A stretch of DNA of 40,575 bases from Verrucomicrobiales bacterium (lineage in GTDB: Bacteria > Verrucomicrobiota > Verrucomicrobiia > Limisphaerales > UBA9464): positions 1 to 40,575 of the forward strand of contig JAIXZE010000006.1 of NCBI GenBank assembly GCA_027489875.1, read 5' to 3'. Shown here piece after piece: positions 444 to 29,184 of this stretch. The notes below the pieces were generated by a model. That model was not told the DNA's origin. It made no database searches and was given only the letters and a program-made list of their open reading frames with translations. The first letter of the stretch is position 1; each line of letters opens with the position of its first letter. The translations under genes were made by a program, and so were the position numbers.

Positions 444-1112
444 TCAGCGCCGCCACCGCCGCCACACCCCAAACACTCCCAGCGCCAACGCTCCCACGAG
501 CACCGTCGTCGCAGGCTCCGGCACCGGCGTGATGATCAACTCCCAGGAGTCCAACCGGGCCAGACCACCCGTGGCCAGGTCTGCGGCAAACAGCGTCCAC
601 GTGCCGTTGGGATCGATCCCCGTGAAACTGTCGAAGGTCGCCACACGCGGGGTGGTATCCAACACCTCGGAAGGATCCGCGAACCGCGCATCCGGCTCCC
701 ACCGCCCGGTCAACGGCTCCAGGATGGTGTTCTCGTCCGTGCCGAGGATCGACCGGTAGTTGTGGATGTCCCCCTGCGTCCCCGTGGAGGCAAAGGTGAC
801 GTTGAACCCGTTGTCCGGCGATCCGAACGAATCCAGCGCGGTGACCCCGGGACGATTCAGGAGGACACTGAAGCCCGACCCGTGCTGCAGGGTCAGGTAC
901 AGGTCCCCGTTGTAGGCACCGGCACCCACGCCGGCGATGTTCACCCGGACCTCCAACGAGAGGATGCCGGGGGTGGTGGTGACGACAGTCCGGACATCCA
1001 CCAACCCGGTGCCGTCATTGTCGGGAATGAACCCGTTGTTCACGTTGAACAGGAACGACTGGGCCGCGAGCGGGCTGGCAGCAAGGACCAGTGCGAGGGG
1101 CAGGTATTTCAT
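444..1112 (-). CDS. exported P-domain-like protein with VPEP-CTERM sorting signal
   Basis: A 222-residue exported protein. The start chosen is the ATG at 1112, because it opens a clean signal peptide (MKYLPLALVLAAS, likely cut after LAA near residue 18); the longer frame would overlap the upstream gene. Residues about 20-195 resemble the beta-sandwich P (Homo B) domain of proprotein convertases: a GDLYLTLQH strand, an NGTWTLFAAD strand and a final DSWELIITP strand. The last 26 residues are a PEP-CTERM anchor: VPEP at about 197-200, a hydrophobic stretch and the basic tail WRRWRR. Such tails are normally processed by an exosortase, which is not in this window. It begins 23 bp after the stop of the giant gene, so the two are probably co-transcribed. 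No strong Shine-Dalgarno is visible. The catalytic part of a protease is absent, so a structural or binding role is more likely. Confidence 0.85.
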   Translation of the reverse strand: MKYLPLALVLAASPLAAQSFLFNVNNGFIPDNDGTGLVDVRTVVTTTPGILSLEVRVNIAGVGAGAYNGDLYLTLQHGSGFSVLLNRPGVTALDSFGSPDNGFNVTFASTGTQGDIHNYRSILGTDENTILEPLTGRWEPDARFADPSEVLDTTPRVATFDSFTGIDPNGTWTLFAADLATGGLARLDSWELIITPVPEPATTVLVGALALGVFGVWRRWRR

Positions 1113-1135: not shown

Positions 1136-4100
1136 TCAGGGAGCGGTGACGTCGACACTGCGATAGTACCGTGTCGCATGGCTTGCGGCATCGTTGTCGG
1201 TGAATTCGAAGAGTCCGTTGACACCCGCCGTGGCGGTGCCCAACGAAGTCCACGTCGGAGTGCCAAGATCCGGCGTGGCTTCGATGCGGTAAAGTCGGCC
1301 GGGAATGCCGGCGAATCGGATGGTCACGCGCCCCGTGAGGTCGCGATCCAGCGTCAGGACGTTGCGGCTCGGCGTCGTGTTGCCACCGATCACGTTGACC
1401 TGCACCACGCCGATCCCGAGGCCGCCACGTCCATCCGACACCTGATAGGTGAAGGAGTCCGGGGCATCGCTGCCCGTCGGCGGCGTGTACAGGATCCAGG
1501 GTCCGCTGCGGCGGACGCTGCCACCGTTGGCGGTCGGCGAGGTCACCGAGGCGAAGCGCACCGGATCGAAGTCCGGATCCGTGTCATTCGCGAGCAACTC
1601 GGAGATCGCCACCTTCAACGCTTCACCCGGCTTGCGCGAGACCGTGTCCGCACCCGCGATCGGTGAGTTGTTGCGCGCCGTCACGGTCACCAGGAACGAC
1701 GTCGAGGCGGACGCCGAACCGTCGCTCACGGTGAGCGTGATCGTGGCGAGGCCTGCCTGACCCGAGGCAGGGGTGAGGGTCAGCGTGCGTGCCGCGCCAT
1801 CACCGGAGATCGCCACGGAGGCCGACGAGATCAGGCCGGGGTTCGACGAACCCACGTTGATCGTGAGTTCGTTCAACGGCGTGTCGGAGTCGCCCACGTT
1901 GAAGGACAATCCGGTGATCGGCAGTCCCGCCGGCGTCGTCTGCGGCGCAATGCCCGAGATCGTCGGCGCGCTCGAAACGAACGCCACGGCCGTCTGGGCG
2001 TCGGGCGATGCCGGCTGGGCTTCCACATTCCCCGCCTGGTCGCGCGCCCGACTGAAGAACGCGTAGGTGCGTCCCACCGTTCCCGGATAGATGGATCCGG
2101 TCAGCGGCGTGGCGGTGAGCCAGGCCGCAAACGGTCCGCCGTCCTCGGACACGTAGATGTCGTACGAGGTCACTCCCGTGTTGTCGGATCCCGACCAACT
2201 CACGGGGATCTGCGCCGGGCTGTTCGCAGGCAGTGGCAGCACCGCGCTGACCGGTGCGACACCGTCCGGAGCCGGAGGATCCACGTAGATCAGGCGGTAG
2301 CTGCCCGTCGAGTTGTGGTCGATCAGGTGCAGCATCTGCTCGTAGATCGGACGCGCCCCGAGGCCCGGGAAGGTGCGGTCCGTCACCCAGAATTCGCGGT
2401 CGAGACCGAGTTCCTTGCCGTCCGAGCGGACGATCCGCCGCAGACGCAGCGAACCATTCGAAGGTTCCGGAATCCGGAGATAGGTCCAGCCAGCAGGCAT
2501 GGCCGCGTTGACGGTCACTTCGGTGACGCCACCGCCGGGCACACCGGACACGGAGGCCAGTTCGACCAGCGCCACGTCATTGGTGCTGCCATCGCTCAGG
2601 TACAGCGTGTCCGGCATGTTGCGCGGGTCGCCCTTGTCGTTCACGAGGAAGTCCGGCTTGCCGTCATTGAACGGTGCCCCGACCTCCACCATGCGGGTCA
2701 TCTCATGGATCGTGACGGCTTCGATGAGCGACAGCCGCGGGTCGCCAAGTTCGTCCTGATGGGCGAACGACGCGGTGTACTCACGGAAGTTGCCCTGCAG
2801 GGTCGACGTGAACAGCCAGCGGCCGATCACGATCTGACCCGGACCGACGTTGCCGAAGTTCGCGGTCAGCGACGGCGTCAGGTTCTGGCCCGCCACCTCG
2901 GTGGCGATGATCTTGAAGTCCACGAGCAGGCCGCGCTCGTTTTCGATGATCTCGGGCTGGCCCGAGATGATCCGGAAGTTACGCGCCGTGCCGTAACCTT
3001 CGTTGCGCACCAGGACGCCGAGGGTGAACGGAATCGAAGGCTCGATCGGATCGGTGAACGGATCATCCGAGAACACGTCGCGCTGGTGGAAGTATTGGAC
3101 CACCAGGTTCGGGTTCGGGAGCACCTCGATGCGGCTCGGCGCGAGCGGCACGGTGATCAGGACACCGTCCTGACGGTACCGGAGCGTGCCGCTGACGTAG
3201 TGGACGGTCGGAACCGTCGGGGCCGCATCGCTCGTCGGGACCAGGATCCACGTCGCCTTGCCCGTGGAGGACGCCCCGATCACGCCGGAGCCATCCACCG
3301 CGCTCAAGCCGGTCAGGGTCGGCGTGCGGACGCCGAAGTCGATCGTCGATTCGGAACCGTCCTCACGCTCAACACGCAGGTCGACATCGACCAGGTCGAG
3401 CGCACCCGCGGTGTTGTTCTCGACTTCGAGAGTCGCCTTGAAGGCATCGCGGGTGATGACCGCTTCCTGTTCGAGGCGGAGCTTCACACGCGCGCAGACC
3501 CCGCCGCCGTTCAGCAGGGCGTTGTTCAGGCGGTCGCGGGCATCCTTGATCGCGGAGTACTCGTCATTGAAGCCCTCGGCGATGTTCTCCTCACGCGCGG
3601 CCGCAGCCTCGGCGAGCAATCCCTGCAGGACGTCGTCCGCGATGAAGTCTTCGTTGAAGCCGTCCGGAAGATCCGTCCAGTTGGTGATGCCACCGCGGCG
3701 GTATTCCACCGTGCGGTTCCAGCGGTTCAGGAACTTCAACACGCTCTCACCCGGGACACCGGCCGGCGGCGTCAGCGCCACCAGTTGGCCGAACTCCGCC
3801 AGGTTCAGCAGGTGCTGGTCGGCGGACGCACCGCTCGACCGCTCCGCGAACGCCGCCCAGAACGCGATGTTCATTTCGTCCGTCGCCTTCGCCGCGGCCC
3901 ACGCCTCGTCGTCGAGGACATAGACCATCGGTGCCATCATCCGGCGCAACCGATCCGTCCGGGTGCGGAGTTCCGCGAGTTCCGGAACATTCGGCGGGAC
4001 GATCGGCAGCGGGTTCAACCGCAGGTAAACCTGCTCATGATCGGGTCCGACCGCCACACCTGCCGCACGGCGTGAGCCGCCGCCACCACCGCCGCCACCG

Positions 4101-7100
4101 CACTTGTCGAGGGTGTCGCGGGTGAACGGCGTATCGGTGAGCTGGCAGAGACATTGGGCGATGCCCGAACTGTTCCCGTTCACGCAGGCGCAGAGCAGAC
4201 CGCGGATGCACGAGAACTCGGACAGCCCGGGAATCTCGATGGGCGAACAGCCCGGGATCGTATTCAGGCAGTCCAACGACAACGCCCCGCCAAGCCCCTT
4301 GTCGGCGATCTTGCCGCCGCACTTCGAGAGCGCGTACATGCAGTTCAGCGCCTTGATCAGCGGGAACTTGTTCGCCAACTGGTCGATCACACACTCCGCG
4401 AGACCGATCCCCAGGTTCAGCTTGCAGGGATCGCAACCCTCGGGTGCCGAGGCCGGGGTCACCGGGATGTGGTAGGTCGGCACCGAGCAAAGGAAGCAGG
4501 GGCCACCGCCTCCGGGTCCACCGCCGGGCCCGACTTCGCCACGGAAGTCCAGGCGCGGGAAGGTGCTGCCGCCATTGCCACCGCAACCGGCACCCGCGTT
4601 GTACATGACATAGGGCACCGTGTACTTGTTGGTCTGCTCACCGCAGACAAGCTCGTAAACCGTGAACCCGGCGGTGATGCACGGGCCACCACCGGCTGCA
4701 GTTGCCGCCACGCGTCGCAGGGCACTGCCGCCACCCGGAGCCGACGCACGCCGGATCGTCATGGGGACCACCAGCGAGGTCTTGGCCGGCAGGTCGCCGA
4801 ACTCGCGGATCAACGGCTCGAAGATCCAGTCCGGATGCTCGGGCACCTGCAGGCTGGCGTTCTTCGCCGCGATCAAACCGTGGTTCGTCACCTTGAAGTT
4901 CACCTGGCCCTCGGTCCCCACGATCGACGCGAGATCCACGCTGGCCGGTTCAATGGTGACCACCGGCAGCGGCACGGCCGTCTCGAACACCGTTTCGATC
5001 ACGATCTTCGTGCGATCCTCGATCTCGGTCGGCTCGACCTTCCACGTGTAGCGCACCGCCTGACGCGCCAGGAACGCTGTCACGTTCGTCGTCCCGCCCG
5101 CCGGCACGAGATGCACCTGCTGGTAGGACGAATGCTGGTCGGCCGAAATCTCCAGCCGGTAATAATTCTCCGCCAATCCCGGCAAGGTCACGAGACCCGT
5201 CGGACCGCTGTTCGTCTCCAGCACGGACAAACCCGTGAAGGCATCCACGAGGCGGATCGCGGCGTTCGCCACGCGCGGTGCACCCTCGGCGTAGAAGGTA
5301 TACTCGTCGGTGACCTCGACCACCATCCCGCCAATCGAATCCGACAGGCAGCGGAAGGTGAACGGAACCGTCACCTGCGAATTGTCCGAACCCAGCAGCA
5401 GCGATCCGCTGTAAGGCCCGAGCGGCAGGTCCGCAGGCGGTGTCAGCAGGAGCGAGATCGTCGTCGTCTCGCCCGGGGCCAGCGACGGAAGGTCCGCCGT
5501 CGACGCACTGCTGAGCCAGGGAATCGGGGGCAGCAACAACCGCATCGGACCGGTCGCCAGCCCACCCTGGTTCGCCACTTCAAAGGCCACCGTGACCTGC
5601 GTGCCACGACGCATTCCCGTGACGATGCTTCCCGGGGTCGCCACGAGTCGCGGCCGGAGCGCATCGACCTGGATCGGCAGATCCACCAGTCCCGACACCC
5701 CCTCCTGGGTCGTGACGCGCAACCGGGCCGTTCCGCCACGAACCACGCCCACCGGCGCAGTCACCGCGTAGCCCAACATCAACCGCCCGTCACCCGGCAG
5801 CACCGTGCCCGACAGGTTCGCCGTCACGTTGAGCCCCGCCGGCTTGCTGACGACTTCCACAGCCGCCGCGTTGAGGTCGATCTCGGAAAGGTTGTCGACC
5901 GCCAACGAACCGGTCGCGGATCCGCCCTCGATGACCGAGATGGTTCCCGGGGCCGCGATGCGGAACCCGAGCAGCACGAACACATCCTGCGTCGGCGGCG
6001 CCGAGACTCCGGGATGCGCCGCGGCAATGTCGTAATGCCCGGCCTCGCCCGGCAACGGCGTGAAGTTCAACCGGAACTCACCCGCCGAATCCGTCAGGGC
6101 CGAAATCACACGCCGGGTTCCGCGCACCACCACGTGCACGTTGACCAGCACCGACGGTGCCGGTGAACCGTTGTTCAGGCGCGCCACACCGCGCATCGGG
6201 ATCACTGTTCCCGCCGGCACGACATCCACGTCCGTCGACACCGTCGCGTTGTAGGCCGGGACAATGTTGATCGGAGCCGAGATCGCCGTGTTGTTGGCTT
6301 CGTCCGTTTCCGTGACGACGCCGTTCACGTCCACCACCGCGATCAGGTAACGCGCTCCCGTTTCGCGCGGCAGCCGGATCGGCGGGTTCACCTCGAAGAA
6401 ACTCCCCGCCGGAACTTCGCCGGGGAAACTGTATTGCGAGGCGAGGACATCGCTCTCGTTGAAGGTCGTGTCGGACGACAGGAACAAACGGATCGTGAAT
6501 GGCGTCGCCGCACGCAGGCCACGATTCTCGATGCGGTACGAGCCCGTGACGAACGTGTCCGTCTCCCCGGTCGCCGGCAGCGAAACCGACGCCACCACGA
6601 GATCCGGCAGGTTGATGTCGCTCACCGTCATCTGGGCAATGCCCGGCGTGAATCCATCACGCCCCGCCGTCACGGTCACCCGCTTGGCACCGTCCGGGGT
6701 CCCGTCATCCACCGTCCCCACCGGGAAGGTCACCGAGGCCGAACCTACTGGAATCGTCACCGTCGGCGGCAACACCAGTTCGCCCGTCACATCGACGGCC
6801 AGCGCCACTTCCAGAGGCACCGACGTGTCCGTGTTGCGTCGAAGCGTTCCGATCGCGCCACCGACCACTCCTTCGGCCAGCGTCCCACGATTGAAGCTCA
6901 ACAGCAGCGTCGCGCCGTCATCGTCGGTCACGGTCAGGTCTCTCGAAACGGCATCACCTGTTGGGACCCCGCCCCACAGCAGCACCACTTGCAGCGTCAC
7001 CGGTTGGTTGCCATCGACCACGTCGTCGTTCACCGCGGCGACATTGAAGTTCACCGAAGCCTGCCCCGCCGGAATGATCACCGTCGAAGGCACCGTCGCC

Positions 7101-10100
7101 GCCGTCGTGTCCGACGACGTCAACCGGACGCTCAACGCACGATCACTGGGGAACGATCGCGTGACCGTGCCTTGCGTGGCTGCCGATCCCGCACCTTCCG
7201 GGAAGGACGCCGCGTTCACGGTCAGGGCCAGCGTCGGCAGGTCGTCATCCACCACCGTCACCTGCACAAAGGCCGCAACGTGCCCGATCGAAGTCGCGTC
7301 CACGCGGTAGGCCGTGTCCGGCTCGATCAAGGTGTCCGCCGCGCCAATCAGCGCGAAGGTCACCGAGCTCTGGCCCGCGGGAATGATCACCGACGAGGGG
7401 GCGATCAATTGGCCCGGGTTGCTGCTCACCAGGTTCACCGTCACAGGAACGGGCGTCACCGTGCCCCGGGATATCGTGGCCGAAACCGTCAGGCCTTCGG
7501 CCACCGTCGGGCTGGCCACGGTGAGGGTCAGCACGGGTTGGTCCACGTTGCGCACCGTCACCGTCGCCGAAGCAGAGGTGAACGCAGCGGCCAACGCCTG
7601 CACCGTCACCGACGCATCGTCATCGACCACGCCATCGGCCACCGGCGTGCCGTTGAATCCGACGGAACCCGCGCCGGCAGGAATGATCACTTCCACCGGA
7701 ACCGCCAATTCACCCGCGTCGGAACTGGTCAACGTCACCGGCAAGGCCGCCGTGCGCGCACCATTGCGGGTCACCGTGAAGCCAATGGCCGCACCGGTCT
7801 CCGTCGTCTGCGCCGTCGAGGCCACCAGGCGGAGCTGGGTGGGAATCACCAGCGAACCCGCGCTGATCGCGGCATTGTTCACCTCGGATTCCTCCACCAC
7901 CTGCAAGCCCACGTCGACGGTCACCACACCACGGTAGGTGCCAGCGATGCCGTCATGGGGAATGAGCACGCTGGCCGAACGTTCGACCGAGACTCCCGCG
8001 GGCAGCGGTGCCGCCACCGGAACGCTCACCTGCAACAGATCGCCGCCGATCTCACCATCAACCGACAGCGACACCGTCTCGGTCCACGGAGCCACCGCCA
8101 CCACCGCTCCGGTGTTCCGTGTGGTCCAGGTCACGTTGAACGGCACGCCCGGCGTCACCGTCGGCGGCACCACGATGTTCTCAACCACGAGATCCGGCCG
8201 CGGCGGCGGGCTCAGGAGCAGCGCCTCCGATGTCCGGGTGTTGTTGGTTTCATCCGATTCCGCCAACTGGAACGACGCATCCGTCGTGACCGCGATGCGA
8301 TGCGATCCCGCCGTCAACCCGTTCAACGGGATGTTCACCGTCTGGGAAAGGTTCACGCTCGCGCCCGGAGCCAGCGGGGCCGCCGCGCCGGCGGGCCGCA
8401 CGCCCAGGTTCGCGACCACACTGCCGCCTTCGGTCCGCAGCGTGATCTGGTCGTTCCAATTCGCCGCCGGGGCATTGCCCGCGTTGCGCACCGTCCACTG
8501 CACCAGCAGGGGCGCGCCAAAGGTCGAGACCCCCGGCACGGTCAGCACGTCCACGACGAGGTCGGGCCGAGGGAGGTTGTCGATCTGTGTCGCCGCCGAG
8601 CTTCCCACGTTGTTGCCCTCGTTCGCTTCCGGCAACTGGTTGGCCCCGTCCGAAACCACGAGGAACCGGAACAGTCCCGGTGCGACGCCGCCGATGCCGG
8701 GCAGCGCGAATGTGCCTTCCATCGGCTGCTTGGCTCCCGCCGCCAGCGGCGTGGCAAGCGCGCCCGCCGAGCCAAGATAGATGTCCCCACCGCTCAGGAC
8801 GTCATCGAGCGAAAGGTACACATAGGTCGTGACCGGCCCGTTCGCATCGACGCTGCCCGCGTTGCGCAGGGTCCACCGCACCGTGCCCGTTGACCCGAAG
8901 TAAGGCGTGGGCACCACTTCCACCGCATCGGTCACGAGATCGGGTTGCGAGATGTTGATCCGACCCGCCCCGACGGACGTGTTGTTGGCCGGGGATCCCG
9001 ATTCCTGCACCACCTCGCCTGCATCCGTCGTCACCACGAACCAGTGATCCCCGCTGACTCCCGCGGGCAGCTTCACGCTGCGGGATTGCACCACGGACTC
9101 ACCCGCCGCCAGTGGCCCGGGCACCGAGAAGGTTCCCAACACCTGATCGGAACCCGCCACGCCATCCGTGGACAGGAAGACTGTTTCGGTCCAAGGACCG
9201 ACAGCCGGGACCGAACCCAGGTTCGTCACCGTGTAATCCACCGTGATCGAGGCACCGGCCGCGCCGGCCGCGGGCCCCGCCACACCCGCCATCACGAGGT
9301 CAGGCAAGGCCACAGGCGACACGAACGCCAGGTTGTCGATGGCTGCCGTCTCCGCACCGGACCCCAGGGTCACCCGCACACGGGCGATGCCCGGGGCGCT
9401 GATGGTGACCAACTCGCGCGACCCCGCACCTGCCTGGCTCGTCCGCGTATAGATCTCCGTACCGGCGGCGTTGTAGGCCTTGGTCACCGTTCCCGGCGCT
9501 GCCGCATCAATCACGAAGAACGCGACGAACGGCGTCGTCGCCGGCGTCGTCGTCCCTGGACTCACAAAGCGGATCTCGATCTGCGAAGCCGCCGCGGGAT
9601 CGCCCAAAACACGCGTCGCCGACACCGGGACAAAGGTCGCCGGATTCGCCGAGGTGGTCACCGGATTGCCGGCGAGGGTCTCGAACACCACGCCCTCCGA
9701 CGCGTACTGCGTCGTCAGCACCGAATCAGCCGGCACTTCCTCGAAGGTGATCAACCGATCACCCAGATCCGGGGAAACATACATCCGGTTCTGGGGAACG
9801 ATTCCGCCTCCAGTGTTCGCGGCCGTCGCCCACGCAAACTCGAGGCCACTGGCCCCGATGGCATTTGCAGCAAAGAGCAATTCCACCGGGTACAACCCGG
9901 GCTCGGCAAAGCTCACGGGCATCCAGGAATAAGTGAATCCACGGTCGCCCGCCGATCCCAGCACCTGATCGCCCACCGTGAGGTAGAATCCATCGTCACT
10001 GCCCACGCCAAACTGGATGTCGATCTCCGGCGTCACCGGGAACATGTCGAGATCCGGCGTGATGCTGATGAAGAACCGATGCCGCAGGATGAAGTTCCGT

Positions 10101-13100
10101 GCGGCCAACCCCAGCACCTGCTCCGGCGGCGTCGTCGTGTTCTGGAAGAAGGTATTGAAGCTCGCTCCCACCCCAATGCTCGTCCCCGGTCTCGGGAAAT
10201 CAATGAACGGACTCAACGTCGTCCCACTCGGAGACCGGCCAGCCAGTGCCGCCGGCGTGGGCGTCGTGCCACCGCCAATGCCGTTGAACAGTTCGATCGC
10301 CACGCCGTTGCCCGGCACCGGCGGGATCGTCGTACGTTCGGCATCCGCCACAGGAACCAGGATGCCGTAGTTCTGCTGCACATCCAGAAACGCCCCGCTG
10401 CTCGGTGTCGTCCCACCCGCATCCGTAACCAGGCAGCGATACGTTGCTTCATCCGCCAACTGGACGTTCACCAACTCCAGTGTCGGATCCGTCTTTCCGT
10501 CCAGGTTGCTCCCGTTCTTTTGCCACTGGTACGTCACCGGAGCCGTCGCATTCGCGCTCACGCTGAACTGGACCGTCGAGTTCCGCAGCACGGTCACTCC
10601 GCTCGGATGCGAGGTAATCTGCGGCGGCGTCAGGATCTGGAATGTTCCCTCAAACCGATCCTCGATCGCTTCGCCCGGGGTCCCGTCGGCATCCGTGTTC
10701 ATCAGGTTGCCCACCAGATCCGCAATGGCCGGCCCAACCCGGAGGGTATAGGTCCCGTTCATCCGCTGACTCGGGAAGTTGACCGTGTACCGCGTCGCAC
10801 TCGTGCGGGAGACAGAGTTGGCTCCCACCACCGATCCATCCGGCCGCACCAATGCAAAATCTGCAGCAGCCACCGACGCCATGAGGACCGGCTCGTTGAA
10901 GTCGACCTGCACGCTGGAAACAGGCACCAGGCTCGTGCCGCCCGGCGTGAAGGAGGCCACCGTCGGTCCCACCGGATCCAACGTGACACTCGTCCTAAAT
11001 GTCCCATCGGCCGCGCTCGGCAGGAGCACGCGGACATTGTCGATCGCCCAACTCTCGTCCCCGATGCTTTGCAAGCCACGCCCACGGAACCCAAGGGCCA
11101 CCGACGAAGCCGTGTGTGGCACCGTGAAGGTCAGGTCCCGATACAGCGCATCCGGGTTCCCGGAATAGATGAAGTTCGCCCCATAGAGCGCCGGCTCCGT
11201 CAACGTGTAGCTCTGGAGCGCACGGTTCCCGTTGTTGAACGTGTATTCCCATGCCGGCGTCGCACCGCCGTCAACGAGCACTCCGAAGTAATCCGGCCCC
11301 ACGCCGCCCGCCGTGTTGCCATCCCACGTGTCGATCAGCAGGCCATCCCACGTCACCCGAACACTCTCATGCGGCGGCAGGTTCCCCAACGTCAGGGTCA
11401 CCGTCTCGTTCCCGAAACGCCCCAGAACCTGCGTTGTCGTCGTCGTCGTTGCCGTCTCGATCCGATCCCACACTCCCTCGGAGCCGCTCTCGAAATCGGT
11501 CGCGTAGTAAGGCGTGTACGCAACCGGTTTCATCACCTGACCCGCGATGCCAAGGATGTTCGGCCCCACCGTCACCTGATAGGTCCCCGCGGCAGTCACC
11601 GCCGGAAAGGACAGCCGATACCGATCCGCTGCCAGCATCGTCACCGTGAACGTCCCCGGATCCAACACGCCGCCCGGCCCCGTCACCTGGAAATCCGCAG
11701 CCCCGATCGTCGAAGCATCCACCCCCGTGCTGAAGGTGAAGTCCATCTGACTCAGCGAGGAGGTCACCGGCCCCGGCGTCACCGCCGAAACAAAGAAGTC
11801 CGCCACCACCACCGTCAACGCGATCGGTGCCGACGTCGTTGATCCCGTGGGCGAGGAGACCACACACCGATACTGCCCTTCCCGGCTCACCGCCAACGGG
11901 CTCAGACGCAGCGTGGGACTTGTCCCGCCCTGCACATCCGCCCCGGCAATCGTCTCGCCGTTGAACAACCAGCGATAGTTCAACGGTGTGAACGGCGACT
12001 CGGCCGTCACGGAAAACTCGGCCGTTCCACCCGACGGCACCACTTGGTCGGCGCTGGTGCTCGTGATCAGCGGATCCCCACCAAAGATGCGGAGCGAATA
12101 GTTTCCGATGCTGGTCGGGGCCGCCCCACCAAACACCGTCAGCGTGTACGTCCCAACGTAAGCCGCAAAGAAGGAGCGGTCCCCTCCGTCAAGATTGTCC
12201 GTCACGATCACGAAACCGTCGGGAGCCCGCAGTTCCCACCGCATGCCCAGGAACGGGAATCCCGCTGTGCCGATGCGGTCGTCGACATACATGTTCTGCG
12301 CCTTCGTCAGCTCAAACGTGAACACGTCTGCACTTCCGGGCGTTTCAATGGTGCCGGAGCCCGCGCCATGGCTGCCCGGCGCGATCACATCCCCCATCTG
12401 CAACGCAAAGGGACCGCCGTCCACCACGGGCAGGATCGAGAAGGAGTAAGGCCCATTCACCGCGCCCGGCGAAGTCTGGGATTGCACCTCCACCCGGTAC
12501 TGCCCACCCGCTGTCAGGATCCGCCGCCCCGCCGAATTGCCGTCCAGTCGATCCGAGAACAGGACCGAGCCATTGGGCTCGAACACGAACATCGTTGCCC
12601 GGCTCAGCGTGGAGCCACCGTCCTGGAAGTAGAGGAGTGTTCCCGGCTCCACCGTGAACGTGAAAGTGTCCTTTGATCCCAGCACTTCCAGGTTGCCCGC
12701 GCCTGCCGCCGGCACGCCATCGCTGACCACCGCCGGAATCGTCAACGCAAAGGGCCCCTGATCCTCGACGAACGTCAACCCGAAGGCATACGGACCCGTC
12801 AATTCGGGCCATGAGGACGACGCCAGGACACGGATCGTATACGTGCCCGTCGTCGGCAGGACGACCCGGCCCGGATCCACATTGTCCATCCACTCCGAGA
12901 TCAGGAATCCGCCGTCAGGCCTCTGCATCTGGAACAGCAACTGGTTCGAGAAGCCCTCGCGACGATCATTCACATAGATCACCTGCCCTGCCGTCCCTGC
13001 GAAGGTGTACGCGTCCCGCCCCCCCCGCGTCTCGATGTTGCCCGCTCCGATCACCGGCACATCCTGGGACACCTCGACCGGAAGGGTCAGGGCGATCGGC

Positions 13101-15238
13101 CCGTCGTCCACCACCGTAAAAACCCCAAGGGAGTAGGTGCCCATCCAGTCCGGATAACCGCCTGCTGGCCGCACCTCGATCGTCCAGGTTCCCGCTTCGA
13201 TCACGTCGCGCCGGGCTTCACCCCGGTTGTCGAAGGTATTGATGGACTGCAAGCCTCCATCCGGTCCGTAAACCCACATCTCCAGCCCAAAGGACTGCGA
13301 CCCAAGATCCGCGATGAAGAAACTCGTCCCGGCCGGCACGCTGACCTGATACCGATCGATCTGCCCCAGCGCCGAGATCCGCCCCGCCGCCGCCACCGGC
13401 ACGCCATCCGTCACCGTTTCACCGATCGCCAGCAACATCGTCGGCTCATCCACCACCGTCCGGACCACAAGCGAGTAAGAACCAAACTGATCCGAAGAAA
13501 ACGGATAGGGACGGACCACAAGGCGATAGACACCGGTCGACGGCAACCGGATCCGACCGGGATCCGTGTTGCCGAAATACGTTTGGTACAACCGGGTCCC
13601 ATCCGGTCCCTGCAGGTAGGTCTCCAGATTCCCATCATTGCCGAGATGATCGACATACAACAACTGACCCTCCACTCCCGACAGGGTGAAGACATCCTGT
13701 TCCTCGACCGAATCAATCCGTCCCGCACCCACCCCCGGCGAGTCCAACACCACCGGCACATCCAGCGTCAGCGGAAAAACCGCCTCCTCCCCCAGCAACA
13801 CTCCCAACCGATACGCACCCCTCGACCCGCCACTGTAGTCGGTCGAATGAATCACCAACCGATAGGTTCCCGTCTCGGGCAGGATCACCCGCTCCGGATC
13901 CGAGTAATCCAGATAGTTCTGGTTCAACAGGACCGTTCCGGCCGGAGCAATCAGCGTCGAACCCAGACAGCAGCCCTCGGTCATTCCGTTCTCGTCGAGC
14001 ACCAGCGCCTGCCCCGCGGTCCCTTCAAACTCATACACGTCCGCACCCCACGCCGTCTCAATCCGTCCCGAACCCGCCGGAGAATCCGGCTCGATCACAT
14101 CCCCGAGGTTGATCCCAAAGGTCTCAACCCCCGTGACCGGCCAAACAGAAATCTGATAAGTCCCGTAGCCCGTGTTGTAGAACCGCACACGGATCTGATA
14201 CTCACCGGTCTCCGGAAAGGTCCGGATGCCCAGACCCCATGCGTCTATCGAGTCTTCGAAAAGCACGGCACCCGACGGCGAAATCAGGCTCCACACAGGG
14301 CTGTCCCAGAACACACCCTCACTGGAATATCCAAAGTCCATGAACTGCGCCATCTCCCCGGCGTTCGCCGTGAACCGATAGACGTCTTCGCCTCGCGGGG
14401 CCTCGATCCGACCCATGCCAACCTCCGGACTGTCTGCGGAGATCGTTCGCTGCTCCAGCACATCGCCCAGGTCGAAGACCTCGGGCGGGGGGATGTTCCG
14501 GAAGGCAAACGCATACGAACCCGTGTACGCCTGCCACGTATCCTCCGAACGGACCTCGAAGAAGTACTCGCCATCCATCGGCAGCGTGAACTCCGAGGGA
14601 GATCCATCCAGCCACTCGTTCCAGACATTGTTCCCTTCCGGATCCCAGAGTGCGCCGTAGATCTGGCAGCAGCCCACACCCGCCTGGTCGTCAAAAATCA
14701 GGATCTGCCCCGCCGATCCCGTGAAGTAGTACCCATCTGACGTCCCCGCCGTCTCCAGCACGCCCGCCCCGAAAAACGGGGAGTTCTCAGAAATGAGCTC
14801 ATCCAACCCGATCGCGAAATACTGGCTCTCGCTCACCTGGGTGACGGAGAAAGAGTAATTTCCGATCGTCTCGGGTGCCCACGTTGCCGCCCGTACCACC
14901 AACCGGTAAATGCCCGTCGTGCTCAGCTCGATCCGCCCCGGGTCGTACCCTTCGAGCGGGTTCTGGAAGAGGACGTTCCCATCGGGGTCTTCCAGGTACC
15001 ACTCCAACGTTCCTTCCCCAGAATCCTCGCTCAGGTAGATCACCACCGGTGATCCCACCAGAAACAGGTACTCGTCCATCTCCCCGAGGGTCTCGATCCG
15101 CCCAGCGCCCACCTCCGGGCTGTCCGGGCTCACGTAGGCATCCAATGGCGGAAGGTTGAACGACTCAGCGCGCGTTGGGCTCATCCATCCCAGCACCAGC
15201 AAACACCATCCCACCATGAATTGGGTCAGATTCTTCAT
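1136..15238 (-). CDS. giant secreted modular protein (4700 aa; PPC-like, Ig-like, PA14-like, CARDB and Calx-beta-like repeats)
   Basis: An uninterrupted 4700-residue frame. The ATG at 15238 starts a signal peptide (about residues 1-24, ending SPTRA) and is preceded by GGAAGAG. Approximate layout: nine PPC-like repeats of about 110 residues (25-1060, consensus DSPEVGAGRIET then DPGRI.LP.TG.Y); Ig-like (1056-1146); two SbsA-like Ig domains (1149-1243 and 1413-1536) around a jelly-roll-like region; Ig-like (1536-1620); PA14-like (1623-1826); four CARDB domains, each starting PDLV (1976-2463); four Calx-beta-like units (2470-2870); a fifth CARDB (2876-2990); NEW3- and CnaB-like parts (3090-3400); an insert with 18 cysteines ending in a run of eight glycines (3513-3720); a helical region; FN3-like (4323-4426); cadherin-like and Tandem-95-like parts (4426-4616); and a terminal E..PDL..PTWTSLG module (4623-4700). 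It has no PEP-CTERM tail or membrane anchor. The architecture suggests an adhesin or matrix protein; no enzymatic domain is recognised. Function is inferred from architecture alone. Confidence 0.9.
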   Translation of the reverse strand: MKNLTQFMVGWCLLVLGWMSPTRAESFNLPPLDAYVSPDSPEVGAGRIETLGEMDEYLFLVGSPVVIYLSEDSGEGTLEWYLEDPDGNVLFQNPLEGYDPGRIELSTTGIYRLVVRAATWAPETIGNYSFSVTQVSESQYFAIGLDELISENSPFFGAGVLETAGTSDGYYFTGSAGQILIFDDQAGVGCCQIYGALWDPEGNNVWNEWLDGSPSEFTLPMDGEYFFEVRSEDTWQAYTGSYAFAFRNIPPPEVFDLGDVLEQRTISADSPEVGMGRIEAPRGEDVYRFTANAGEMAQFMDFGYSSEGVFWDSPVWSLISPSGAVLFEDSIDAWGLGIRTFPETGEYQIRVRFYNTGYGTYQISVWPVTGVETFGINLGDVIEPDSPAGSGRIETAWGADVYEFEGTAGQALVLDENGMTEGCCLGSTLIAPAGTVLLNQNYLDYSDPERVILPETGTYRLVIHSTDYSGGSRGAYRLGVLLGEEAVFPLTLDVPVVLDSPGVGAGRIDSVEEQDVFTLSGVEGQLLYVDHLGNDGNLETYLQGPDGTRLYQTYFGNTDPGRIRLPSTGVYRLVVRPYPFSSDQFGSYSLVVRTVVDEPTMLLAIGETVTDGVPVAAAGRISALGQIDRYQVSVPAGTSFFIADLGSQSFGLEMWVYGPDGGLQSINTFDNRGEARRDVIEAGTWTIEVRPAGGYPDWMGTYSLGVFTVVDDGPIALTLPVEVSQDVPVIGAGNIETRGGRDAYTFAGTAGQVIYVNDRREGFSNQLLFQMQRPDGGFLISEWMDNVDPGRVVLPTTGTYTIRVLASSSWPELTGPYAFGLTFVEDQGPFALTIPAVVSDGVPAAGAGNLEVLGSKDTFTFTVEPGTLLYFQDGGSTLSRATMFVFEPNGSVLFSDRLDGNSAGRRILTAGGQYRVEVQSQTSPGAVNGPYSFSILPVVDGGPFALQMGDVIAPGSHGAGSGTIETPGSADVFTFELTKAQNMYVDDRIGTAGFPFLGMRWELRAPDGFVIVTDNLDGGDRSFFAAYVGTYTLTVFGGAAPTSIGNYSLRIFGGDPLITSTSADQVVPSGGTAEFSVTAESPFTPLNYRWLFNGETIAGADVQGGTSPTLRLSPLAVSREGQYRCVVSSPTGSTTSAPIALTVVVADFFVSAVTPGPVTSSLSQMDFTFSTGVDASTIGAADFQVTGPGGVLDPGTFTVTMLAADRYRLSFPAVTAAGTYQVTVGPNILGIAGQVMKPVAYTPYYATDFESGSEGVWDRIETATTTTTTQVLGRFGNETVTLTLGNLPPHESVRVTWDGLLIDTWDGNTAGGVGPDYFGVLVDGGATPAWEYTFNNGNRALQSYTLTEPALYGANFIYSGNPDALYRDLTFTVPHTASSVALGFRGRGLQSIGDESWAIDNVRVLLPSAADGTFRTSVTLDPVGPTVASFTPGGTSLVPVSSVQVDFNEPVLMASVAAADFALVRPDGSVVGANSVSRTSATRYTVNFPSQRMNGTYTLRVGPAIADLVGNLMNTDADGTPGEAIEDRFEGTFQILTPPQITSHPSGVTVLRNSTVQFSVSANATAPVTYQWQKNGSNLDGKTDPTLELVNVQLADEATYRCLVTDAGGTTPSSGAFLDVQQNYGILVPVADAERTTIPPVPGNGVAIELFNGIGGGTTPTPAALAGRSPSGTTLSPFIDFPRPGTSIGVGASFNTFFQNTTTPPEQVLGLAARNFILRHRFFISITPDLDMFPVTPEIDIQFGVGSDDGFYLTVGDQVLGSAGDRGFTYSWMPVSFAEPGLYPVELLFAANAIGASGLEFAWATAANTGGGIVPQNRMYVSPDLGDRLITFEEVPADSVLTTQYASEGVVFETLAGNPVTTSANPATFVPVSATRVLGDPAAASQIEIRFVSPGTTTPATTPFVAFFVIDAAAPGTVTKAYNAAGTEIYTRTSQAGAGSRELVTISAPGIARVRVTLGSGAETAAIDNLAFVSPVALPDLVMAGVAGPAAGAAGASITVDYTVTNLGSVPAVGPWTETVFLSTDGVAGSDQVLGTFSVPGPLAAGESVVQSRSVKLPAGVSGDHWFVVTTDAGEVVQESGSPANNTSVGAGRINISQPDLVTDAVEVVPTPYFGSTGTVRWTLRNAGSVDANGPVTTYVYLSLDDVLSGGDIYLGSAGALATPLAAGAKQPMEGTFALPGIGGVAPGLFRFLVVSDGANQLPEANEGNNVGSSAATQIDNLPRPDLVVDVLTVPGVSTFGAPLLVQWTVRNAGNAPAANWNDQITLRTEGGSVVANLGVRPAGAAAPLAPGASVNLSQTVNIPLNGLTAGSHRIAVTTDASFQLAESDETNNTRTSEALLLSPPPRPDLVVENIVVPPTVTPGVPFNVTWTTRNTGAVVAVAPWTETVSLSVDGEIGGDLLQVSVPVAAPLPAGVSVERSASVLIPHDGIAGTYRGVVTVDVGLQVVEESEVNNAAISAGSLVIPTQLRLVASTAQTTETGAAIGFTVTRNGARTAALPVTLTSSDAGELAVPVEVIIPAGAGSVGFNGTPVADGVVDDDASVTVQALAAAFTSASATVTVRNVDQPVLTLTVASPTVAEGLTVSATISRGTVTPVPVTVNLVSSNPGQLIAPSSVIIPAGQSSVTFALIGAADTLIEPDTAYRVDATSIGHVAAFVQVTVVDDDLPTLALTVNAASFPEGAGSAATQGTVTRSFPSDRALSVRLTSSDTTAATVPSTVIIPAGQASVNFNVAAVNDDVVDGNQPVTLQVVLLWGGVPTGDAVSRDLTVTDDDGATLLLSFNRGTLAEGVVGGAIGTLRRNTDTSVPLEVALAVDVTGELVLPPTVTIPVGSASVTFPVGTVDDGTPDGAKRVTVTAGRDGFTPGIAQMTVSDINLPDLVVASVSLPATGETDTFVTGSYRIENRGLRAATPFTIRLFLSSDTTFNESDVLASQYSFPGEVPAGSFFEVNPPIRLPRETGARYLIAVVDVNGVVTETDEANNTAISAPINIVPAYNATVSTDVDVVPAGTVIPMRGVARLNNGSPAPSVLVNVHVVVRGTRRVISALTDSAGEFRLNFTPLPGEAGHYDIAAAHPGVSAPPTQDVFVLLGFRIAAPGTISVIEGGSATGSLAVDNLSEIDLNAAAVEVVSKPAGLNVTANLSGTVLPGDGRLMLGYAVTAPVGVVRGGTARLRVTTQEGVSGLVDLPIQVDALRPRLVATPGSIVTGMRRGTQVTVAFEVANQGGLATGPMRLLLPPIPWLSSASTADLPSLAPGETTTISLLLTPPADLPLGPYSGSLLLGSDNSQVTVPFTFRCLSDSIGGMVVEVTDEYTFYAEGAPRVANAAIRLVDAFTGLSVLETNSGPTGLVTLPGLAENYYRLEISADQHSSYQQVHLVPAGGTTNVTAFLARQAVRYTWKVEPTEIEDRTKIVIETVFETAVPLPVVTIEPASVDLASIVGTEGQVNFKVTNHGLIAAKNASLQVPEHPDWIFEPLIREFGDLPAKTSLVVPMTIRRASAPGGGSALRRVAATAAGGGPCITAGFTVYELVCGEQTNKYTVPYVMYNAGAGCGGNGGSTFPRLDFRGEVGPGGGPGGGGPCFLCSVPTYHIPVTPASAPEGCDPCKLNLGIGLAECVIDQLANKFPLIKALNCMYALSKCGGKIADKGLGGALSLDCLNTIPGCSPIEIPGLSEFSCIRGLLCACVNGNSSGIAQCLCQLTDTPFTRDTLDKCGGGGGGGGSRRAAGVAVGPDHEQVYLRLNPLPIVPPNVPELAELRTRTDRLRRMMAPMVYVLDDEAWAAAKATDEMNIAFWAAFAERSSGASADQHLLNLAEFGQLVALTPPAGVPGESVLKFLNRWNRTVEYRRGGITNWTDLPDGFNEDFIADDVLQGLLAEAAAAREENIAEGFNDEYSAIKDARDRLNNALLNGGGVCARVKLRLEQEAVITRDAFKATLEVENNTAGALDLVDVDLRVEREDGSESTIDFGVRTPTLTGLSAVDGSGVIGASSTGKATWILVPTSDAAPTVPTVHYVSGTLRYRQDGVLITVPLAPSRIEVLPNPNLVVQYFHQRDVFSDDPFTDPIEPSIPFTLGVLVRNEGYGTARNFRIISGQPEIIENERGLLVDFKIIATEVAGQNLTPSLTANFGNVGPGQIVIGRWLFTSTLQGNFREYTASFAHQDELGDPRLSLIEAVTIHEMTRMVEVGAPFNDGKPDFLVNDKGDPRNMPDTLYLSDGSTNDVALVELASVSGVPGGGVTEVTVNAAMPAGWTYLRIPEPSNGSLRLRRIVRSDGKELGLDREFWVTDRTFPGLGARPIYEQMLHLIDHNSTGSYRLIYVDPPAPDGVAPVSAVLPLPANSPAQIPVSWSGSDNTGVTSYDIYVSEDGGPFAAWLTATPLTGSIYPGTVGRTYAFFSRARDQAGNVEAQPASPDAQTAVAFVSSAPTISGIAPQTTPAGLPITGLSFNVGDSDTPLNELTINVGSSNPGLISSASVAISGDGAARTLTLTPASGQAGLATITLTVSDGSASASTSFLVTVTARNNSPIAGADTVSRKPGEALKVAISELLANDTDPDFDPVRFASVTSPTANGGSVRRSGPWILYTPPTGSDAPDSFTYQVSDGRGGLGIGVVQVNVIGGNTTPSRNVLTLDRDLTGRVTIRFAGIPGRLYRIEATPDLGTPTWTSLGTATAGVNGLFEFTDNDAASHATRYYRSVDVTAP

Positions 15239-15510
15239 AAACGTTCACTCTTCCGGTCCCACTGCCTTCCACGACCACGATTCCGAGACGGGCAATTCTC
15301 AGAATCGCGGAAAAAACCACGAACCTCTAATCAAGCGGTTCGCATGCCGAAATACTCGGGCTTGGTACATTCCCACACTATCCAGCCACGTGCGTCAACC
15401 GATGCCCCCGCCTATCTCCGCCCCGCTGTAAGGAAGTTCCCCACGAGCCCGGGTTCCGCCGCTACACGGGGAGATCCCAGTCTCCAGTTCCCAGACCCGG
15501 GACAGTGAAG

Positions 15511-15530
15511 GCCGGGTGCCCTCACCCGGC
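15511..15530. repeat. family B palindrome
   Basis: GCCGGGTGCCCTCACCCGGC is a perfect 8-bp stem with a CCCT loop. Identical copies lie at 36861-36880 and 36968-36987, and a stem variant at 36896-36915. It sits directly before a family A element. Confidence 0.9.
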
Positions 15531-15535
15531 GGAGA

Positions 15536-15636
15536 ACGGATTCGGGGCGGCAATGTCCTCATCACCTTGGGAATGGCTTTCGAACGGCGACGAGGACGTC
15601 GCCACCCCGTTGCCCGCAGGGGCAGTGTCCAGAGGC
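15536..15636. repeat. family A paired-hairpin element
   Basis: It starts GGATTCGGGGCGG and carries hairpin 1 at 15549-15566 (loop GTCCTC, stem with two mismatches) and hairpin 2 at 15586-15603 (perfect GGCGAC/GTCGCC stem, loop GAGGAC), with a 19-bp spacer. It ends with the GGGGCAGTGTC tail. The same spacer occurs at 37092-37110 and, reversed, at 35581-35600. Confidence 0.85.
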
Positions 15637-15815
15637 CCCCGCCACGCGCTTGGAAACCGCATGAATCTTGAAACTGAAAACTTCCCCCCCCTTCACCACT
15701 CCGTCCATCCGCAGCATTGCTTCCGGACCCGAAACATGCGGCCATGCAAGCGCGCTGTCCGAGCAGTCCCCCGACGGGATGGTCCCCCGGCCCTGCCCGG
15801 AAGCGCACGCATACC

Positions 15816-16223
15816 ATGGAGTTGTTGAGCGAAGAGAATGTGGTCGGACGCAAGACCGTTGAACTGTGCACGGCCTTGGCCGCGTCGCCGGAGTTCACCG
15901 CGATCCGCGGCCGGATTGAACGGTTTTCCGCCGATACCGAAGCCCGCATGCAGTTCGAACTGGTCAACCGCAAGGGGGCCAGCCTCGAAGAGAAGCAGCA
16001 GTCCGGTGCCGAGATCACCGAAACCGAAATCGCCGACTTCGAGAAGATGCGCGATTCGCTGCTCTCCAACGATGTCGCCCGCGAATTCCTCGAAGCCCGG
16101 GAGGAAATGATCGCCCTCCAGGAAGGCGTCCAGCAGTGGGTCGCCAAGACCTTCGAACTCGGTCGCCCGCCCACCCAGGACGAAATGGGCGGCTCCTGCG
16201 GCCCCGGCTGCGGCTGCGCCTGA
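15816..16223 (+). CDS. YlbF/YmcA-family protein with cysteine-rich C-terminus
   Basis: A 135-residue, mostly helical soluble protein that fits the Com_YlbF (DUF964) family: a charged N-terminal helix (VGRKTVELCTALAASPEF), central helices with ARMQFELVNRKG and ETEIADFEKM, and a C-terminal helix. The start is the ATG at 15816; the upstream extension is proline-rich intergenic sequence. It ends GGSCGPGCGCA, three cysteines in a CxxxCxC pattern. In Bacillus subtilis, YlbF works with YmcA and YaaT in a complex that carries Fe-S clusters and affects RNase Y and development. Whether this homologue binds a cluster is inference. It has no operon partner: the gene on the left is divergent and mtnA on the right is convergent. 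Confidence 0.78.
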   Translation: MELLSEENVVGRKTVELCTALAASPEFTAIRGRIERFSADTEARMQFELVNRKGASLEEKQQSGAEITETEIADFEKMRDSLLSNDVAREFLEAREEMIALQEGVQQWVAKTFELGRPPTQDEMGGSCGPGCGCA

Positions 16224-16240
16224 GCCCGGTCACCCATCCC

Positions 16241-16350
16241 ATCGGGGAGGCGACGTCCTCGTCGCCCTCTCCCAAAGCTCCCCCCACGGCGATGAGGACA
16301 TCGCCTCCCCGCTGGTGGACGGGGCGGCGACGTCCTCGTCGCCCTGCAGC
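16241..16350. repeat. family A element, one and a half tandem units
   Basis: Three perfect 18-bp hairpins lie at 16249-16266 (loop GTCCTC), 16288-16305 (GGCGAT/ATCGCC stem, loop GAGGAC) and 16326-16343 (loop GTCCTC). The first and third are 77 bp apart, and the CTCTCCCAAAGC spacer matches the array at 1-315. The element fills the gap between the convergent YlbF and mtnA genes, where the hairpins could also act as a bidirectional barrier to transcription. Confidence 0.9.
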
Positions 16351-26847: not shown

Positions 26848-26952
26848 GGCCAGCCCGTGGCCCCAGGCCCGACAGACGATACGCCAAAAGACGCCCCGGA
26901 GGGGGGTGCTGTCGCTTGTCCACGCCGTCCGACCCGATTAACACTTTGCGTT

Positions 26953-29184
26953 ATGCCTCCCCGATCGAACCCGCGCCGCTGGCACTCCCTGTCGATCGCG
27001 CTCTGTTTGCTGGCCGTGCCACTCATTCAGACGGCGGTGGCATCGACGATCCATGCCGCGATAGCCCGAGGTAGCCGCGCGACTTCGTTTGTCCTGGGAG
27101 ACGACGGGCGGTTGTGGTGTTGGGGGTCCAATGATCTCGGTCAGTACGGCGATGGAACCACGGACAGCCGGTTGAGCGGGCGACCGGCACCACTTCCCGC
27201 GGGAGTGACGAAGTGGCGCTGGTTCGCGCCGGGGTTGCGCTACTTCGCAATCGACCAGGATGGACGCCTGTTCGCCTGGGGCGAACCCGAGATCTCGAAT
27301 GAGACCAATCCGTCGTCGGCTCCAAACAGTCGGGCGCCGAGTCCCGTGCGGCTTGGAAGTCGAACCTGGAAGAAGGCGGTGCCCCCTGTGGTCACGGCTT
27401 ATCTGGGGTTGGCGCCATTCGGCATGGGCATTGATGAAGCCGGTGCGCTGTGGTGGTTGCGGGCGCCTCGACCGGCACTCGAGTCCGCCTTGGCATTCTC
27501 CGAGTACCGCGAGGATCCAGCCGGGTTGCCAGCGGACGCGGGACCGGTGGTGGATGTGGTGGGGGGCGGCCGATGCTTCGTGGCGTTGACGCAATCCGGA
27601 CGGGTCTTTGTCGCCGGGCAGGAATCACTGGGCCTGATGGGCCCGCGTAGCGGATTGACGGGCACTTCCTTCAGTACGGGATTCCTGGAGATCGATCCGC
27701 CGGTGGGTGCGAGCGTCTGGACGCGGATCGCGGTGGTATCGAACCAGGTCTTTGCCTGGACGGATCGGGACGAGATCTATGTCTGGGGTCATGTGTTTGC
27801 CCTGGAAACGGGGTTCTCGGAAGCGCCCATGCGGGAACCGCGTTTCGTGCCGGGAGCACCGTCGGGGCTCCCGGTGCGGCAGTTGGTGGGGCTCGGATAT
27901 CACACCGTTGGCTACCTGTTCGTGGACGATAACGGCGAGGTGTCAGGATGCGGGCCGGGAAATACGGTCTGGCCCTTCCCTGGGACCTTGGCCCCGGACC
28001 TCTTCCGGGCAAAGACCCCGCTGCGATTGGAGCCTGAACTGGAGCCGGTTCAGCAATTGTCGGTGACGCCCTTGTTCCAGTTGATCCTCGGTCCGGACGG
28101 ATTGGTCCGTGCGAAAGGCCTCAACGACGATGGTCAATTGGGGCAGATCACCTCCATCGCTCTGGGCGATCCCGGGCCGCTCGTCATCCCCGGAGGAGAG
28201 GCACCATTCCTGGCGGGCGTCCCGGCCGAGGTCCCGCGGCTCCGACTCACGGTGGAGGACGAGCTGATGTTGGAACCAACCACTCCTCGTTTGACGAACG
28301 GGATTCCCGCCCGATTGCTGCTGGAACGGGAGGGAACCGACGTCGTCCCCTTTCGTCAGGTGTTGAGGGTTGCCGCGTTCCTGACCAATGGCCTCCCAAG
28401 TCCGGAGACGAATTTCTGGCGGTTGTTTGTGAATCGAGGTGCCGTCGAGTTTGCCGGGTTGGAGGCGTCCGAGACCAGCCTGTCACTGGCTTTGAATCCA
28501 AGCTACGTCGAGGCGGACAGCACACCGCTGTGGCTGGAGTTCTCGTTGGCTCCCTCCCGCTGGTACGAAGCGGACGGGCAACAAACGGTCCGTGTCCGCT
28601 ATCAGCCAACCGTTCCCGAGAACCTCTCTCCGGCCATCCGGGTGGTCTGGCCGCCGCCGGGAGTCACGGTCTACTGCAGTCGGGGGATGGAGTACTTCGT
28701 GGAGGCTGAGGATCCCGACGGGTACGTGGCCCAGTTGTCCATCGAGCATGACTTCGTCCCCTTCAATCCGTTTCGCGTTACCCGGACGTTTCCTGCGGCC
28801 GCTCCGGGCACGCCGCGTCGTTACCACGTCGAGTTCACGGGGCCGTTTGACATCATCTTTTCGACGATCGAAGCGGTGGATGACCGGGGACGCCGGACGA
28901 TCCGGCGGAGTTCAAATGGCAATGCGTTGGTGTTTCGATCCTACCAGAGGTCGGCCCTGGCCCTGAAGGTGGGTGGGACGACCGTGCCCTTCAAGGTTCC
29001 GCCGACCACCGGTCCCCTCGTGCTGGAGAGTTCCTCCAATCTCCAGGACTGGACGATCGTGCAGGCCTATCAGGTTCCGAATCCAGGCTTGCCGTCGACG
29101 CCGTTCACTCCGGAGGAGAACGGCGGAGTCGCGCGGTTCTATCGACTGCGGAATCCGGATGCCCCGACGAACTTCACGAACTGA
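26953..29184 (+). CDS. exported RCC1-like repeat protein with terminal beta module
   Basis: 743 residues from the ATG at 26953, which opens a signal peptide (RRWHSLSIALCLLAVPLIQT, cut near AVAS). The first 400 residues hold degenerate RCC1-type blades: FVLGDDGRLWCWGSNDLGQY, FAIDQDGRLFAWGE, CFVALTQSGRVFVAGQ, VFAWTDRDEIYVWG and ILGPDGLVRAKGLNDDGQLG, suggesting a seven-bladed propeller. Residues about 440-600 look like Ig or Calx-type sandwiches. The last 70 (LVLESSSNLQDWTIV ending RFYRLRNPD) resemble the C-terminus of the giant protein at 1136-15238. It lies 105 bp after the kinase gene and is probably a separate unit. No enzymatic motif is seen; function unknown. Confidence 0.85.
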   Translation: MPPRSNPRRWHSLSIALCLLAVPLIQTAVASTIHAAIARGSRATSFVLGDDGRLWCWGSNDLGQYGDGTTDSRLSGRPAPLPAGVTKWRWFAPGLRYFAIDQDGRLFAWGEPEISNETNPSSAPNSRAPSPVRLGSRTWKKAVPPVVTAYLGLAPFGMGIDEAGALWWLRAPRPALESALAFSEYREDPAGLPADAGPVVDVVGGGRCFVALTQSGRVFVAGQESLGLMGPRSGLTGTSFSTGFLEIDPPVGASVWTRIAVVSNQVFAWTDRDEIYVWGHVFALETGFSEAPMREPRFVPGAPSGLPVRQLVGLGYHTVGYLFVDDNGEVSGCGPGNTVWPFPGTLAPDLFRAKTPLRLEPELEPVQQLSVTPLFQLILGPDGLVRAKGLNDDGQLGQITSIALGDPGPLVIPGGEAPFLAGVPAEVPRLRLTVEDELMLEPTTPRLTNGIPARLLLEREGTDVVPFRQVLRVAAFLTNGLPSPETNFWRLFVNRGAVEFAGLEASETSLSLALNPSYVEADSTPLWLEFSLAPSRWYEADGQQTVRVRYQPTVPENLSPAIRVVWPPPGVTVYCSRGMEYFVEAEDPDGYVAQLSIEHDFVPFNPFRVTRTFPAAAPGTPRRYHVEFTGPFDIIFSTIEAVDDRGRRTIRRSSNGNALVFRSYQRSALALKVGGTTVPFKVPPTTGPLVLESSSNLQDWTIVQAYQVPNPGLPSTPFTPEENGGVARFYRLRNPDAPTNFTN

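Follow-up and report, generated by a model that had tools for sequence, protein, structure and literature searches.

How a secreted protein of 4,700 residues that carries no recognizable anchor could be kept at the cell surface is the question raised by one open reading frame of a Verrucomicrobiales bacterium. The frame (P0001) occupies positions 1136–15238 of the minus strand of the window, the 40,575-nucleotide stretch analysed here, which is the whole of contig C352 in a draft genome of 6.2 Mb (451 contigs, 89 % complete). It starts with ATG, while the same interval read on the plus strand contains in-frame stops. Nearly all sequences in this work come from metagenome assemblies, the organism labels of some being doubtful (MAGs filed as Akkermansia muciniphila are an example), and statistics for the whole genome are derived from searches. 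An open frame of 14 kb far exceeds what chance would produce, and its description in the initial annotation as uninterrupted holds on the minus strand and also in the closest relative, locus L035 (G038:C36), which encodes 4,551 aa with 64 % identity, the same layout and nine repeats. Comparison of the two genes by the Nei–Gojobori method gave a dN of 0.31 and a dS of 1.16 (dN/dS about 0.27), and the gene is under purifying selection in the ortholog; a gene broken in relatives had been named as an argument against the initial reading, and in the relatives it is intact.

Elsewhere in the window, an interspersed REP-like repeat with the core GGGGCGGCGACGTCCNCGTCGCC is found at positions 1–311, about 15540–15610 and 16249–16343. 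Allowing up to three mismatches, we counted 674 forward and 683 reverse matches in the genome, of which a single nearly palindromic copy may contribute to both strands, and none for a reversed control pattern. The repeat often forms 79-bp tandem units, and several contigs start or end in it. Positions 15816–16223 (+) hold a short frame (MELLSEENVVGRKTVELCTALA...GGSCGPGCGCA) that resembles a YlbF/YmcA-type protein on visual inspection; the longer frame on the minus strand (15395–16237) is probably spurious.

By a generous count the giant comprises about 30 modules (Table 1). Our own HMM delimited nine PPC-like repeats of 113–117 aa each, arranged head to tail, and Pfam detected PF04151 (PPC) at 39.8 bits, above the cut-off of 25.9. 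As neither Pfam, NCBIfam nor a fold search of the core revealed a peptidase or other enzyme family, the proposal of nine N-terminal repeats without a peptidase was confirmed. The accompanying assignment of PA14-like, CARDB and Calx-beta-like units stood for CARDB, recovered five times by Pfam, but not for the other two: residues 1620–1985 matched no Pfam family, residues 2465–2885 gave no Calx-beta match in Pfam and only LapA at an E value of 0.012, and both labels remain motif resemblances only. With two Ig_3 domains, Big_5, NEW3 and Big_9 in addition to CARDB, the general picture of a secreted, beta-rich and non-enzymatic mosaic of many modules is supported, and an adhesin role appears plausible. 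Between blocks A and B, a Cys/Gly-rich stretch (4079–4681, residues 3520–3720) holds most of the 27 cysteines of the giant; it differs from homolog to homolog and matches no family.

Table 1. Features of the giant and its companion gene in the window. Signal peptides of both proteins were called by eye from the sequence.
Feature	Residues	Window positions	Strand	Basis
Signal peptide	1–25	15164..15238	-	by inspection, MKNLTQFMVGWCLLVLGWMSPTRA / MKNLTQFMVGWCLLVLGWMSPTRAE
Nine tandem PPC-like repeats	31–1059	12062..15148	-	local HMM, nine contiguous matches
Ig_3 domain 1	1056–1128	11855..12073	-	Pfam E 5.6e-10
Big_5	1423–1513	10700..10972	-	Pfam E 1.4e-7
Ig_3 domain 2	1538–1605	10424..10627	-	Pfam E 7.5e-13
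PA14-like stretch	1640–1810	9809..10321	-	motif only, from the initial annotation
Four CARDB	1979–2457	7868..9304	-	Pfam PF07705, whole-protein E 6e-52
Calx-beta-like repeats	2470–2875	6614..7831	-	motif only
Fifth CARDB	2878–2985	6284..6607	-	Pfam E 5.2e-11
NEW3	3210–3276	just N-terminal of block A	-	Pfam E 6e-8
Block A, common to the giant family	3291–3580	4499..5368	-	phmmer over homologous giants
Helical bundle	3752–3910	3509..3985	-	AlphaFold2, pLDDT mostly >85
Block B core (410 aa), Ig-like beta sandwiches	3911–4320	2279..3508	-	40 homologs and predicted fold
Big_9/tandem-95, first half of tail	4523–4615	1394..1672	-	Pfam whole-protein E 1.8e-16
GIPGR-FYR module, second half of tail	4623–4700	1139..1372	-	own profile A5
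Companion (222 aa), predicted P-domain and PEP-CTERM		444..1112	-	23 nt past the stop codon of the giant

No anchor was found in the giant itself, in agreement with the initial annotation. The C-terminus gave no match to TIGR02595 (PEP-CTERM) and ends in the GIPGR-FYR module, Pfam matched no autotransporter-type C-terminal outer-membrane beta-barrel domain, and no family for a T9SS C-terminal sorting domain was matched in Pfam or NCBIfam. The SprA translocon (PF14349) had no match in the genome, and the control genomes were equally without one.

Conservation along the chain is uneven. Compared with L035, amino acid identity is 45 % in the PPC array, the fastest-evolving part of the giant, 82 % in block A and 84 % in block B, a rise that fits a variable distal and a conserved proximal end. 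Only 355 of about 480 residues of the CARDB stretch could be aligned, L035 being short of about 125, which indicates that module number varies; the number of PPC-like repeats was 9 in L035, 8 in L044, 5 in L065 and 4 in both L055 and L063 (own HMM).

The 410-aa core, block B, had no match in Pfam, NCBIfam or PDB sequences, and a PDB sequence search with the giant returned only Ig domains. An alignment of 40 homologs, 35–84 % identical, contained 40 invariant columns. Within the same GTDB family, 20 of 50 genomes encoded block B, at most seven times each and six times in the source genome, almost always within frames thousands of residues long; in a phylum-wide sample, 23 of 288 genomes had it. 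Among 84,980 species genomes we found 418 related stretches, the best 80 of which belong mainly to Verrucomicrobiota; a few are from Planctomycetota and one is from a Nostoc assembly. The AlphaFold2 model of the core region (pLDDT 87.8) consists of a helical bundle followed by Ig-like beta sandwiches, which Foldseek and VIA-align matched to adaptin-ear, transglutaminase and pilin Ig-type domains with a best Z of 8.8 over 100 residues, middling values (Z < 9) that we take only as 'Ig-like'. As modelled, the fold of the core is structural and without sign of an enzyme; an enzymatic core, the finding named at the outset as contradicting a fibre, emerged neither from the domain searches nor from the core fold searches. 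In a single-contig genome of the same phylum (G132:C1), four core giants lie at 4.68, 4.71, 4.74 and 5.22 Mb, with frames of up to 9,641 aa; three of the four share a stretch of about 61 kb.

Besides this core, the initial annotation overlooked a companion gene directly behind the giant and a C-terminal tail shared with other proteins. The companion has a beta-rich domain behind its signal peptide and ends in VPEPATTVLVGALALGVFGVWRRWRR, where a PEP motif, a hydrophobic transmembrane helix and a basic tail are kept in homologs; TIGR02595 matched at 21.5 bits (cut-off 16). Its structural model (pLDDT 78) could be superimposed on the furin P-domain with a Z of 13.6 and an rmsd of 1.9 Å over 122 residues, and on the A. 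sobria serine protease with a Z of 10.8. PF01483 scored 19.3 bits against the companion of the window, under the cut-off of 21, and matched 8 of 10 companion homologs (best E 4.9e-5). The predicted fold of the companion is the jelly-roll of the furin/Kex2 P-domain. Five exosortase genes (PF09721 over cut-off) are present in the genome, and the companion may be cleaved by such an enzyme. Homologs occur across the order, in 70 of 196 genomes and 52 of 107 genera, and in 3 of 240 genomes searched phylum-wide, where the 12 best candidates per genome were scored, so that the cassette appears to belong mainly to one order.

Companion homologs were gathered from the family and the order, and their upstream neighbours were read in a subset. 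Of the distinct stand-alone companions, 76 had sufficient upstream sequence to be evaluated, and 73 of these were directly preceded on the same strand by a gene ending in the 75-aa GIPGR-FYR module, for which Pfam and NCBIfam hold no family. Since our profile of the module was built on family-level loci, the count there has a circular component; the order-level loci, which did not enter the profile, gave about 20 successes together with all three failures (L256, L265 and L271). The tail gene invariably comes first and the companion second, separated by a median of 37 nt (interquartile range 21–61), and the paired partners range from about 250 to more than 5,000 aa. The suggestion in the initial annotation that retention depends on secretion context or a partner thereby gains strong circumstantial support, with a companion 23 nt downstream and a pairing this regular. 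Giant and companion very probably belong to the same operon, and a scan for sigma-70 promoters and terminators around the gap between them yielded nothing, no different from chance. Because the pairing is so consistent in related bacteria, the small gene is probably the dedicated surface partner of the fibre.

As a control, we examined the other PEP-CTERM genes of the genome, of which 2 of roughly 24 located, about two of these locations being doubtful, have a module gene upstream. The genome holds 36 module-like copies, almost all of them at the very C-terminal end of their proteins; the top seven by score are those with a companion, and no companion follows the others that were inspected (29 of 36 unpaired). 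The end of a secreted RCC1-repeat protein at 26857–29184 (+) of the window (..PLVLESSSNLQDWTIVQ..GVARFYRLRNP) resembles the module, and no companion was seen beside it.

Within the core family, all 12 giants with a companion scored at least 53 bits for the module (8 of them outside the training set), and the 71 evaluable giants without one scored at most 45.3 bits. Companion presence changes about five times on the core tree, indicating that tail and companion travel together and not with the core; for the same reason we dropped companion presence as the mark of a single clade of core giants. A test of module versus companion on independent pairs gave 3:0, too small for significance. In another core-giant clade (L110, L129 and L148) a different PEP-CTERM gene lies −4 to 16 nt behind the giant (in L129, for example, ..GEGLGDAIEFAVGMPIPEPG..), possibly a second, independent pairing.

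The conserved tail extends beyond the module. Big_9 was found just ahead of it in 10 of 10 scanned partners (254 to 1,296 residues read) and in 71 of 72 paired partners overall, whereas the figures were 2 of 18 for unpaired module genes from the source genome and 4 of 79 for core giants lacking a companion, a contrast that defines a bipartite tail of Big_9 and module. At two loci, L072 and L186, P-domain, Big_9 and module are fused in a single chain, which fits docking of the tail on the P-domain. At the L072 locus (G038:C15, 6113–10671), a frame of 902 aa containing a divergent core is followed by two successive companions, the first of them fused to Big_9-like sequence and the C-terminal module. 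Distances of module and companion were correlated with a Spearman coefficient of 0.20, above all 2,000 permutations; the correlated divergence is weak and partly due to shared ancestry. Among the pairs that have stayed together, median identity is about 32 % for the module and 39 % for the companion. Linkage would likewise be expected if the pair had been duplicated and inherited as a unit.

On the basis of this architecture, conservation, gene pairing and the predicted folds, we propose that the giant serves outside the cell as a modular fibre or an adhesin-like matrix protein, exported via its signal peptide, whose fast-evolving N-terminal PPC-like and Ig-type modules would point away from the cell and whose conserved C-terminal third would face it. 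In furin/Kex2 convertases, P-domains pack against adjacent domains and stabilize them. The P-domain of the companion may in a similar way bind the last ~180 residues of the giant (Big_9 and the 75-aa module) and so retain it on the surface, after the companion itself has been exported, had its PEP-CTERM tail cut by an exosortase and become attached to the surface of the cell or to exopolysaccharide. PEP-CTERM proteins are described as exported, exosortase-processed and active where the cell surface meets exopolysaccharide (PMC1569441, PMC12188702), their outer-membrane passage and attachment target being unsettled (PMC12188702). We hold this display of the giant through its tail to have an even chance of being correct. 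Since the same tail and companion serve other cargo in related bacteria, the two genes can be viewed as a surface-display cassette, and we suggest more tentatively that any exported cargo tailed with Big_9 and GIPGR-FYR may be captured in trans by the P-domain adaptor of the next gene, order-wide and in a manner so far undescribed.

The same linkage could arise from two separate matrix proteins that are co-expressed, sharing timing and not contact, with the companion stabilizing exopolysaccharide and the giant soluble or loosely bound. Operon linkage by itself requires no binding, and PEP-CTERM proteins are tied to exopolysaccharide and to floc or biofilm formation (PMC1569441, PMC12188702); co-expression, however, predicts neither that linkage tracks one bipartite tail, instead of secreted giants generally, nor that the order of tail gene and companion is constant, and we judge it unlikely, though to be taken seriously. 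An improbable alternative would make the companion a membrane-tethered chaperone or export escort that binds the tail in the periplasm during folding or exit and is not the final anchor. The stabilization of neighbouring domains by the furin/Kex2 P-domains, whose fold the companion shares, would agree with such a role. So would the model in which a PEP-CTERM tail keeps its protein at the inner membrane until processed (PMC12188702), but exosortase processing would set the companion free.

That the tail is a mere terminal Ig-type cap, and the pairing an ancestral relic spread by duplication and horizontal transfer without functional constraint, is in our estimation very improbable: the weak correlated divergence and the abundance of companion-less module-like copies in the genome accord with it, yet pairs endure at low identity, on varied cargo and in several core lineages, where separation would be expected without selection. 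The notion of a large enzyme, such as a PPC-bearing peptidase with an overlooked catalytic domain, starts from the usual occurrence of PPC domains with peptidases and from a helical region and block A that carry no assigned function; with no enzyme family in Pfam or NCBIfam and a core model that is only Ig-like, it is hardly credible, even though about 1,000 residues, in several stretches, have no assigned fold.

Parts of this arrangement have precedents. The companion resembles the PEP-CTERM/exosortase (EpsH) sorting system in its signal peptide, PEP motif, transmembrane helix and basic tail, and exosortases are encoded in the genome; PEP-CTERM genes, however, mostly stand alone, more than 65 % of them being single-gene operons behind long upstream non-coding DNA (PMC1569441), whereas the companion family takes the second place in a closely spaced pair, behind a gene with one specific tail. 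With the proprotein convertase P-domain (PF01483; furin, Kex2, Aeromonas ASP) the companion shares its predicted fold, but it comes without a protease, stands alone, bears an exosortase tail and scores under the Pfam cut-off. Giant1–5 of Apilactobacillus kunkeei (PMC12863079) are likewise thousands of residues long, extracellular and several per genome; they belong to another lineage, and in the present case a conserved core and a partner gene are found. The giant shares standard modules with bacterial Ig-type mosaics (CARDB, Ig_3, Big_9/tandem-95), to which it adds nine peptidase-free PPC-like repeats, an uncatalogued core and an uncatalogued C-terminal module. Giant Ig-type mosaics and PEP-CTERM proteins are already known, and the fixed cassette of tail and companion is the new part; in the open-access literature we found no description of a P-domain joined to PEP-CTERM or of such a gene pair.

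PEP-CTERM proteins are abundant in environmental bacteria, yet the partners they hold are largely unknown, and the constant pairing of a tailed cargo with a P-domain PEP-CTERM protein offers a concrete, testable prediction of binding. Two recognizable, uncatalogued protein families are added, namely the core of 410 aa and the C-terminal module of 75 aa. Taken together, the pairing suggests what dozens of uncharacterized small genes in Verrucomicrobiota may do and offers a possible explanation of how anchorless giant fibres stay on the cell.
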